A DNA stretch of 64,000 bases. Source: Symbiodinium natans (lineage: Eukaryota; Sar; Dinophyceae; Suessiales; Symbiodiniaceae). The first letter of the stretch is position 1. Each line of letters opens with the position of its first letter. Both the position numbers and the translations under genes were made by a program. The stretch is from NCBI GenBank assembly GCA_905221605.1, contig CAJNDS010000413.1, positions 760,112 to 824,111 on the forward strand. The letters are read 5' to 3'. The notes beneath the pieces were generated by a model. The model had not been told where the DNA came from and searched no databases. It saw only the letters and a list, made by a program, of their open reading frames with translations. Positions 6,501 through 54,481 of this stretch are shown piece after piece.

Positions 6501-6607
6501 GTTGGTAGTCCAGTGGTACCCTTTACCCCCTTTTTTAGGTTCTAAAGGTATCCGACCCCAAAAGGGTGCCCTTATTCTTATTATAATATGACTACTGGGC
6601 TACCAAG
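6501..6607. mobile_element. Family D element
   Basis: Arms GTTGGTAGTCCAGTGGTACC and TGACTACTGGGCTACCAAG. Flanks CTAC and CCAC match at 3 of 4 positions, a possible worn target duplication. Confidence 0.6.
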
Positions 6608-36804: not shown

Positions 36805-36918
36805 CTAGGATGCCCAGTAGCACCCTTATCCCTTTTCTTGGGGGGTTAGGTTCCCTCATAAAACCCCTTGAAGCAAAAAGAGGCACCTTTTCAAATCCTA
36901 GCTTACTAGGCAACCTAG
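36805..36918. mobile_element. Family D element with ATAT duplication
   Basis: ATAT/CTAGGATGCCCAGTAGCACCC...TTACTAGGCAACCTAG/ATAT. Confidence 0.75.
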
Positions 36919-40558: not shown

Positions 40559-40672
40559 CTTGGTAGCCCAGTGGTACCCTTTCCCCCTTTTTTTGGTTAT
40601 GGGTTCCCTTATAAAAATTTCCAACCCAAAAAAAGGGCGCCCTTACTATGATATGGTTACTGGGCTACCAAG
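40559..40672. mobile_element. Family D element, long perfect arms
   Basis: CTTGGTAGCCCAGTGGTACCC...GGTTACTGGGCTACCAAG. Confidence 0.75.
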
Positions 40673-41576: not shown

Positions 41577-41990
41577 CTCAAATCAGCCACCCACCGGACC
41601 GGCAAGAAGGGCCGCGCCCAAACAGAGCGCCATGGTGTTCACTCCGACTCTCAAGTACAATGTGAGCCCTTGGCTGTTGACGATGACAATTCTGCCTTTC
41701 GTCGCGCAGCCGATTTGGTGCTTTGCGATATCGACAAGTTGGTCAAGTTGGAGCTCACACACCGGGAGCCAGGACCTGTTCGCGGCGACACTATTTATGC
41801 TGCCTTTGGGCAGCTTGCTCTCAGGGGCTTTTCTGGTCTATCAAAGTTACATGAAGGGCAGCGTGTGTCAAGTTTGCTTCCCGGCATTCTTTCCGCACGT
41901 GGACCATCCGCTGCACTTCTTAGATCGGCGTCGCTGGTGCTGGACCCCTCTTGGTGGCATCCTGCTTGCCTTCTTGGGGTTCCTCTGTGA
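41577..41990 (+). CDS. Putative large exon, 137 open codons
   Basis: GCACAG/ then LKSATHRTGKKGRAQTERHG..., later AADLVLCDIDKLVKLELTHR, open to TGA at 41988. This is the longest non-repetitive open stretch that starts at an AG. The true 3' end is probably a donor such as TTG/GTGGCA near 41950. An overlapping membrane-like frame (41632-42081) is taken as a shadow, but it is not excluded. Confidence 0.55.
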   Translation, partial: LKSATHRTGKKGRAQTERHGVHSDSQVQCEPLAVDDDNSAFRRAADLVLCDIDKLVKLELTHREPGPVRGDTIYAAFGQLALRGFSGLSKLHEGQRVSSLLPGILSARGPSAALLRSASLVLDPSWWHPACLLGVPL

Positions 41991-42042
41991 CGGTCCGCAG
42001 TTTGCCTTTAGCCTACTCCCTGGCACCCACATACGGGAGAGC

Positions 42043-42244
42043 CTTGGGCACCAAACGAACCCTAAATTTTGGGGGTCCTAGACCCCATTATACGATTATA
42101 ATCCTATGAAGGTAAAAAACCACATATATATATGTGTACATAAAAGTATATTTATATACCCTATACTACTATAATTCCATTAAGGTATGTATTTGTTTTT
42201 CTATATAACCATAAACCCTTTTAGGGTTCATTTTGGTCCCCGAG
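42043..42244. mobile_element. Element R, ~200 bp inverted repeat
   Basis: CTTGGGCACCAAACGAACCCTAAA and inverse TTAGGGTTCATTTTGGTCCCCGAG. The centre holds a TATATA hairpin. A half-copy lies at 47139-47220. Confidence 0.7.
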
Positions 42245-42302
42245 GGGTTCCTATGACCAGCTGGCTGCCGCGTTCAAGACCAAGAGCGATCGCCTCTTCG
42301 AA
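42245..42302 (+). CDS. Exon of 41577-44111 gene model, ends phase 0
   Basis: Directly after element R (CCCGAG/). Reads SYDQLAAAFKTKSDRLFE. Ends at GAA, with GTGGAA as donor of the 56-bp telomeric intron. Confidence 0.6.
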
Positions 42303-42358
42303 GTGGAAGGCCTTTCGTTTAGTAATTTAGGGTTTAGGGTTTAGGGTTTAGGGTTTAG
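42303..42358. other. 56-bp telomeric-repeat intron with flanking direct repeat
   Basis: Starts GTGGAAGGCC, continues as TTTAGGG units and ends TTTAG. GAAGTGGAAGGCCT (42300-42313) and GAAGCGGAAGGCCT (42359-42372) flank it. Removal leaves an open frame. Confidence 0.55.
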
Positions 42359-42415
42359 GAAGCGGAAGGCCTGCTCGACCTCAGCCGCGTCACCAGCTCC
42401 ACCTTCTGCACGTGT
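42359..42415 (+). CDS. Exon of 41577-44111 gene model, phase 0-0
   Basis: 19 codons EAEGLLDLSRVTSSTFCTC, bordered by the telomeric intron and the family D insertion. Confidence 0.6.
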
Positions 42416-42419
42416 GACA

Positions 42420-42642
42420 CTTGGCAGCCCAGAGGTACCGTTGCCCTTGCTTTTTTTTGGTTCAGGGCTTAGGGTTGAGGGTTTAGTTTAGGGTTGAGGG
42501 TTTAGGGTCGAGGTTTAGGGTTTAGGGTTGAGGTTTAAGGTTTAGGGTTTAGGGTTTTGGTTACGGGCTCCCTTGTAGCAATAACCAAACCCCCCCAAAA
42601 AGGGGGCCCTCATTGTAATGTGGCTACTACTGGGCTACCAAG
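42420..42642. mobile_element. Family D element forming an intron, GACA duplication
   Basis: GACA/CTTGGCAGCCCAGAGGTACC...CTACTACTGGGCTACCAAG/GACA. Its middle is swollen by TTTAGGG/TTGAGGG units (42463-42553). Removing 42416-42642 (a GA...AG intron) joins TGT to GACACC with no change to the coding sequence. Confidence 0.8.
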
Positions 42643-43088
42643 GACACCTGCCTGTCGGTACATTGCCTGCCGCTTGCACCCCTCACGCAAGGAACGCAGG
42701 TGAAAAACATCACAGAGGCGTCCTCACGCTTGTTGCGTGGGGCCGGAGGCGGCGGAGGCGGCGGAGGCGGTGGTGGAGGCTTTGGTGGCTCTCGTGACTC
42801 CGAGTCTATCTGTGATGAGACGTGTGTGTATGCTGCTCCGATAGTCCCGGTGCAGCGGGCCGACTGCCCAATAGCGTTCGCGGTTCACAAAGACACGCCT
42901 CCATTCTCCGCAGCTCAGCTGGTGTCTGGAACCGCAAACTACGGGTGGTGGGGCGGACCATTCCAAGAATACGCCTACCGCTCCGCAGTGGATCGCCTCG
43001 CCTCCAAAGACATTTGCGGGGAAAGGCCGCTGATATACACTCTGGACCCGCAATCTGGTCGTTGGTGGTTTCTCTTCATGGTTCCGAG
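42643..43088 (+). CDS. Exon of 41577-44111 gene model, about 148 codons
   Basis: Continues in frame after the D element: DTCLSVHCLPLAPLTQGTQ, then a poly-Gly linker (42735-42780), then CPIAFAVHKDTPPFSAAQLV..., later NYGWWGGPFQEYAYRSAVDR. Ends CCGAG/GTAGGC. If that donor is used it leaves 2 nt, which does not fit the next exon's phase, so a small exon or another donor may be missing. Confidence 0.65.
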
Positions 43089-43226
43089 GTAGGCGCTTGG
43101 GATAATTTTATGTGTACTTCCCTTGTTGGGTTTGAGAGGACCATATGTAGGAACATGTTTAGGGTTTAGGGTGTAGGGTGTAGGGTTTAGGGTTTAGGGG
43201 TTAGGGTTTAGGGGGGGTGTCTTCAG

Positions 43227-43348
43227 CGGGTTTTTTTGAAGGGCCATCTAAGGTTCTTCTGGCTCTGACTTGCTTGCCATGCTCCTGGGCCCTTGCTGCC
43301 ACTATCCTGTGGAGCCGTGGGTGGAATGACACTGACTCTTTAGATGGG
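43227..43348 (+). CDS. Exon of 41577-44111 gene model
   Basis: GTCTTCAG/ then GFFEGPSKVLLALTCLPCSW..., ending DSLDG at GTAACA on a codon boundary, which suits the exon at 43501. Hydrophobic. Confidence 0.5.
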
Positions 43349-43841: not shown

Positions 43842-44111
43842 GAATCAATCGCTGAGAAGACTGAGCCAAGCCTTGCTTCGTGGTTCGGGTTTTCTGCTAC
43901 GTATGACCAAGTCCCAGCAGTCCAAGAGCGTGAGCATGAGCTGCGTGGGTTTTATGGCACGTCGCTGTTGCTACACCTGCGGCGATGCGTCGCGGAGCAC
44001 TTGCGACTGGATCTCAAGTGCATCGGCCTTAGACGTGGCCAAAGCGTGCTGGCGATCGAGTCCGATTTCCGGACGCTGGACGAGTTGCTAGGCAGGCCCT
44101 TGCATCTTTGA
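43842..44111 (+). CDS. Terminal exon of 41577-44111 gene model
   Basis: CGTGTCAG/ then ESIAEKTEPSLASWFGFSAT..., later LDLKCIGLRRGQSVLAIESD, 89 codons to TGA at 44109. Joins 43653 in phase 0 through a 188-nt GT...AG intron. Product not recognised. Confidence 0.65.
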   Translation, partial: ESIAEKTEPSLASWFGFSATYDQVPAVQEREHELRGFYGTSLLLHLRRCVAEHLRLDLKCIGLRRGQSVLAIESDFRTLDELLGRPLHL

Positions 44112-46456: not shown

Positions 46457-46646
46457 CTGATTGAAGATATCCGAACAGATGATTCGGATTTGAGGATTAG
46501 AGGGGTTGGCTTGAGGAAGCTGCGCACGCACAAGGTCTGTGATGCCTGCCAGGAGCGATTTTCGAGCTCGTGGCTGATGAATCGTTGCGTGACATGCCGC
46601 CTGGACTTCTGCAACCAGTGTGTGCGGGCGGCAACAGCACCCGCAG
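46457..46646 (+). CDS. Putative exon with multi-Cys zinc-finger pattern
   Basis: CCACAG/ then LIEDIRTDDSDLRIRGVGLR..., then CDACQERFSSSWLMNRC-VTC-RLDFC-NQC: three C-x2-C pairs with RING/ZZ/FYVE-like spacing. Ends GCAG/GTGCAA. The finger class cannot be fixed by eye. Minus frames over this region are shadows. Confidence 0.6.
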
Positions 46647-54306: not shown

Positions 54307-54365
54307 GCCATGAGGGCCAAGCTCCGCACACTCGGCGCCCCAAACCCGAAACAGCCTTCTCAACT
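54307..54365 (+). CDS. Putative exon interrupted by family D element
   Basis: GTCCCAG/ then AMRAKLRTLGAPNPKQPSQL, ending in the D arm CTAGGATGCCCAG. Confidence 0.45.
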
Positions 54366-54481
54366 AGGATGCCCAGTGGTACCCTTATTCCCTCTTTTGG
54401 AAGGTCATAAGGTTACCATATGAGCCCGGTTGAAGGCAGAAACAAGTGCACCCTTTTATCCTAGGTTACTGGGCAGCCTAA
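54366..54481. mobile_element. Family D element
   Basis: CTAGGATGCCCAGTGGTACCC...GGTTACTGGGCAGCCTA. No clear flanking duplication. Confidence 0.65.

Follow-up and report, generated by a model that had tools for sequence, protein, structure and literature searches.

Has a repeat that lies inside a coding region broken the gene, or does it leave the transcript as an intron? This question is raised by a window of 64,000 nucleotides (the whole stretch of DNA that was analysed) from Symbiodinium natans, in which a 223-bp element with inverted ends, called element D here, separates two coding stretches (Table 1). The preliminary description of this DNA had read D as an introner, a transposon that creates a spliceable intron on insertion, and had placed GACA on both sides of 42420-42642; these coordinates proved exact and the target duplication is perfect (4/4 bp). 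D starts with CTTGGCAGCCCAG and ends with CTGGGCTACCAAG, and its terminal inverted repeats of 18 nt are 83% complementary. When D is left unspliced, the reading frame runs into a TAG within the element. When 42416-42642 is taken out, TGT is followed by GAC ACC TGC and the frame is open up to 43089, which confirms the frame restoration claimed earlier. Judged from the DNA, the excision of D would take place by splicing at 42415/42643. Scanning the whole window for inverted arms of 14 nt with 4-bp repeats gave 79 pairs, which are of low complexity for the most part, so the scan by itself would not prove D. Predicted RNA folding of D was no better than that of shuffles (z -0.57), and a special RNA fold for D is not supported; a strong predicted fold (z -4.44) was obtained for the copy of the same family at 40559.

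Table 1. Features of the host gene, element D and the related copies in the window.
Feature	Position	Strand	Remark
Third window copy of the family, 107 bp	6501..6607	+	91% to consensus over 99 positions
Second window copy of the family, 114 bp	40559..40672	+	94.5% to consensus; outside recognised exons
Host gene, first recognised coding exon	41632..42038	+	ATG at 41632; putative limits
Putative intron 1, GA...AG	42039..42244	+	Gap-free match to P0009
Putative exon 2	42245..42309	+	Match to P0009
Putative intron 2, GC...AG	42310..42368	+	Gap-free match to P0009
Putative exon 3, directly upstream of D	42369..42415	+	Match to P0009
Left GACA of the 4-bp target duplication	42416..42419	+	First two bases GA, putative 5' splice site
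Element D, introner/MITE-like with inverted ends, 223 bp	42420..42642	+	Final AG, putative 3' splice site
Left terminal inverted repeat of D	42420..42437	+	
TTTAGGG-like (telomere-type) repeat block in D	42464..42556 (limits approximate)	+	Not in family consensus; alignment to consensus
Right terminal inverted repeat of D	42625..42642	+	
Right GACA, start of downstream exon	42643..42646	+	AG/G acceptor context
Exon 4, directly downstream of D	42643..43088	+	Putative end AG/GTAGGC
Later coding stretch, same gene	43908..44087	+	Best tblastn E 2e-8
Last recognised coding stretch, cysteine-rich C-terminus of homologs	46535..46645	+	Best tblastn E 2e-5

The exact position of the junction was approached from two sides. 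Five placements were tested for D, and the DNA after removal is identical in all of them because the GACA direct repeat spans the junction; only the first placement, GA...AG/G, agrees with the splice sites of Symbiodiniaceae, for which Table 2 of PMC10666404 gives GA donors in 17-20% and AGG acceptors in 96-97% of introns. In addition, 470 G[TCA]-AG pairs around D were scored against P0009, an ortholog of 384 aa obtained in a second search. An open frame was left by 17 of these pairs and the best score, 200, belonged to GA 42416 with AG 42642 (runner-up 182). The GA 5' splice site of the preliminary description is of a donor class in use in Symbiodiniaceae and lies in the best-scoring pair. 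The protein stays the same when the two ends are displaced in parallel by as many as 8 bases; the exact nucleotide is therefore fixed by the splice-site rule and not by protein evidence alone. The pairing of GT 42436 with AG 42642, which had been named as an alternative, shifts the frame and meets a stop. Removal of D at still other sites, e.g., from GT 42440 or GC 42443 to AG 42642, would lengthen the protein by 8 or 9 residues in frame; of the other 469 pairs, 16 in all leave the frame open. Nevertheless, we consider this highly improbable, as all 16 score below 42416/42642 against P0009 and the next five best pairs add junction residues which change a cysteine spacing kept in 9 aligned homologs.

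Homologous proteins were compared across the junction. Used as a protein query against the genome, the joined flanks hit L010, a distant paralog (32% identity over the matched stretch) whose 482-aa frame runs without interruption in the same genome. With L010 as query, 8 proteins were retrieved including itself (P0001); one of them is an unnamed Durusdinium trenchii product, designated 'Ubiquitin-like domain-containing' in another source. The D junction is placed after the first cysteine of a C-x4-C-x4-C motif and before the second, and the motif has the same spacing in 8/8 homologs (L010/P0001 and seven more) as in the window protein after removal of D. P0009 is 54% identical in alignment and matches the spliced window protein gap-free from SLLPG to the third cysteine with 34/55 residues identical, and this stretch crosses D as well as the putative introns 1 and 2.

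On the + strand, the tblastn matches of the homologs follow one another in order between 41641 and 46645, the ones near 43253 (E 0.14) and 43516 (E 0.01) being weak. The 149 codons open after D still match homologs. The host gene carrying D is a real gene of dinoflagellate type; a Pfam search with two of its frames found no family. Two details of the preliminary description had to be amended. Position 42359, given as a codon start, is in frame but lies probably within intron 2, because P0009 aligns gap-free without that segment. Likewise, the frame of the 148-codon exon is open downstream as described, but the exon ends probably at 43088 before a GT and not at the stop 43090-43092, because homology goes on in later stretches to ~46645. 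Intron 1 has imperfect inverted ends of its own together with its GA...AG pattern, and it is possibly an older introner from another family. In putative intron 2, a pair of short, nearly identical direct repeats encloses TTTAGGG repeats.

D belongs to a large repeat family. In the genome (759 Mb, 2,543 contigs), the consensus 5' 20-mer of the family, whose end sequence is CTTGGTAGCCCAG, occurs exactly 1,746 times (905 + 841), while a reversed control 20-mer occurs 0 + 0 times. The element is thereby more than a chance arrangement. D itself as query gave 53 matches, many of them to its TTTAGGG-like part. The family was sampled with 100 listed copies from contigs C1-C102 only, distributed over 97 loci (L017-L113), and the 3' end was recognised in 75 of them. 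Among these 75 copies, perfect 4-bp flanking duplications were found in 31 against 0.73 expected on shuffling; for other lengths the counts were 4 (2 bp, 5.3 expected), 1 (5 bp) and 0 (3 and 6-9 bp). The longest of them has 378 bp and therefore none could hold a transposase, which points to a MITE-like, non-autonomous family. A 112-bp consensus was built from 57 copies of 95-130 bp and two window copies, and the median identity of copies to it is 91%. D is 90% identical to this consensus over 111 aligned positions and has ~100 bp of extra TTTAGGG-like repeats in the middle. Being ~10% diverged, which is typical of the sampled copies (median 9%), D is not brand new.

Telomere-type repeats, TTTAGGG or CCCTAAA, were observed inside 17/75 copies with a 3' end; the loci with such repeats inside element copies, besides D, include L104, L066, L067, L069, L080 and L109. 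A related inverted-end family with ends CTAGG... is also present in the window, with copies at 36805-36918, which has ATAT on both sides, and at 54364-54481.

The search for D's element at other intron-like positions, proposed in the preliminary description, found a second case. Thirteen copies in 12 loci were selected for reading because they had a repeat starting with G or a long frame nearby. In L104, the copy interrupts a PPR gene with target GCTA and the pattern GC...AG/G, and the joined flanks match all 50 positions of Pfam PPR_2 (1-50; E 1.5e-8), with the junction inside the match. Removing the L104 copy from the sequence restores the PPR repeat in register. This case bears on another explanation of D, in which an old intron was invaded later by the element and the duplication stands at the exon edges by accident. 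Many copies do lie outside recognised exons, as such an invasion would have it. The direct repeat, however, coincides with both exon edges, and the element plus one repeat makes up the whole intron at D and likewise in L104, so that we give this explanation hardly any credence.

Further copies are readable as introns by eye only, namely those in L041 (GAGT), L042 (GTGG/GTGA) and L088 (GCTG/GCTC) and two in L053 (GCGA/GTTA and GTAC/GTAC). In L053 (892-1342), two same-orientation copies flank a 56-nt stretch which reads as one exon. The joined pieces of L041 and L053 gave no Pfam match. In L094 (991-1106), the target TTTC is preceded by G and the 3' end is CTAGG instead of CCAAG, and thus the AG is moved by one base; by its reading frame, GT...AG/GTTTC would restore continuity there, and the joined pieces again had no Pfam match. 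Coding continuity is ambiguous in L030, and none that is clear was seen by eye in L029, L062, L095 and L106.

D and six other copies read fit G[TCA]-AG/G, the copies having been picked partly for their G start. A left repeat with G[TCA] and a right repeat with G are found in just 12/75 copies, so that making introns is not obligatory for the family. Joined flanks open for at least 40 codons on each side were obtained for 13 copies against 7.9 in swapped controls, a slight excess, and the 12 G-type copies had joined-flank open frames of marginally greater length (p 0.0496). Of the 1,746 copies, 579 (33%) have G at position -4, compared with 28% in nearby flanks as given by the local base composition of 100 sampled copies (p 1.7e-6). 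In the 100-copy sample, G was counted 34 times at -4, 36 at -6 and 37 at -11, and the excess at -4 is therefore not clearly specific, since -6 and -11 are equally G-rich. The excess is weakly suggestive of a minority of copies kept as introns.

As few of the 75 copies were assignable to exons, an ordinary MITE insertion might have broken the host gene copy, with D remaining unspliced in a young pseudogene. A possible failed intron is indeed seen in L087 (852-1900), where an RCC1-repeat gene holds a copy flanked by CAAT/CGAT, a repeat of the non-G type, and the best repeat-continuing downstream frame of this gene, read by eye, has stops. For D, on the contrary, 149 codons are open after the element, homology is kept and further coding stretches continue in order up to 46645; moreover, its ~10% divergence does not suit a recent arrival and the GACA duplication starts with a donor in use among Symbiodiniaceae. 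A broken gene is thus unlikely in our estimate, if somewhat less so than the other two alternatives, and D as a spliced element is the reading followed below.

The orientation of the copies shows a pattern that was less expected. Neighbouring listed copies on one contig are co-oriented in 59/65 pairs, and orientation switches at the scale of hundreds of kb. In the 97 loci surveyed, the longest frame runs with the element in 9/9 loci having one of at least 200 aa, in 15/21 at a threshold of 150 aa and in 24/43 at 120 aa; among all frames with a length of 150 aa or more, 21 have the direction of the element and 12 the opposite one. A Pfam scan for orientation covered 14 frames in 13 loci. The matched frames run with the element in 7/7 cases (L087, L042, L059, L104, L062, L067 and L088, the last with a match below the cut-off, yet counted). 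As to the frames without a Pfam match, those in L029, L109, L030 and L094 run with the element and that in L058 against it, and L113 contributes two frames, as both of its strands are open. Compared by eye with listed copies, kinase matches were on the same strand in 5/5 pairs within 50 kb and in 4/4 at 160-480 kb, and in 0/8 at 630-1,000 kb, a dependence on distance which fits co-oriented blocks. Co-oriented clusters of dinoflagellate genes are described in PMC11453091. Taken together, the copies probably lie mostly in sense, in a sample which is small and whose pairs are not independent; selection or an insertion bias may be responsible. It is conceivable, though we lean against it, that the family is orientation-locked, with almost all copies, in exons or elsewhere, in sense with the gene block around them, so that insertion or survival is set by transcription direction genome-wide and introns are the fraction with a 4-bp target starting with G[T/C/A]. 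Among the titles listed on orientation or unidirectional arrangement of such elements, none concerned an orientation-locked family, by which absence from print is not proven.

MITEs in general are short, have inverted ends and a target duplication, and occur in many copies. Unlike these, at least two copies of the present family (D and L104) sit in a coding exon exactly as an intron, and the copies are co-oriented. With high confidence, we regard D as a non-autonomous MITE-like element that acts as an introner, with the GACA duplication supplying the GA donor. This interpretation, already that of the preliminary description, finds support in the contiguous homologs, in the mobile family with 4-bp duplications and in the L104 copy. 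In the proposed course of events, D would have been moved by a transposase encoded elsewhere and inserted in sense orientation into an exon, whereby the 4-bp target GACA was duplicated. A GA 5' splice site would then be contributed by the left GACA and the AG 3' splice site by ...CCAAG, with which the element ends, and the right GACA would give, with its first base G, the AG/G context usual in Symbiodiniaceae; splicing would take out 227 nt and bring back the pre-insertion coding sequence. The D case would represent gain by insertion rather than loss in relatives.

Similar elements have been documented. Introners of Symbiodinium microadriaticum have a 4-bp target duplication and terminal inverted repeats, with the 3' splice site in the element and the 5' splice site from the duplication (Gozashti et al. 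2022, PMC9860276, legend of Fig. 2B). On this published description, D resembles them in the duplication, the inverted ends and the division of splice sites between element and duplication; its GA donor and TTTAGGG block are differences. Introner families in five dinoflagellate genomes were reported by Roy et al. (2023, Curr Biol), as summarized in PMC11453091, and on that description they share with D the gain of introns by mobile elements in dinoflagellates, in many families. The introner elements of Amoebophrya (Farhat et al. 2021) carry, at the intron edges, inverted repeats (8-20 nt) and direct repeats (3-5 nt), and both repeats of D are within these ranges. According to PMC7789003 they lack a clear splice signature, unlike D and the exonic copies read, which fit G[TCA]-AG/G and were partly picked for that. 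Dinoflagellate introners are also treated in PMC10666404 and PMC10522408.

D matches the Symbiodinium-type introner in being multicopy, in its 4-bp duplication and inverted repeats, in its insertion in coding sequence, removal of which brings back the protein, and, at the sequence level, in the splice-site split. As this arrangement has already been published in PMC9860276, in the legend cited, the phenomenon is not new, and the sequence evidence suggests a clear, not unprecedented instance of mobile DNA making a new intron. D is a clean single-locus case of how a transposon may become an intron, in which an uninterrupted paralog and an ortholog back the coding continuity. With its size and its mixed G and non-G targets in one genome, the family would allow one to test quantitatively which insertions turn into introns and which do not. 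Should the orientation lock be true, intron gain would be the by-product of a transcription-coupled transposon.
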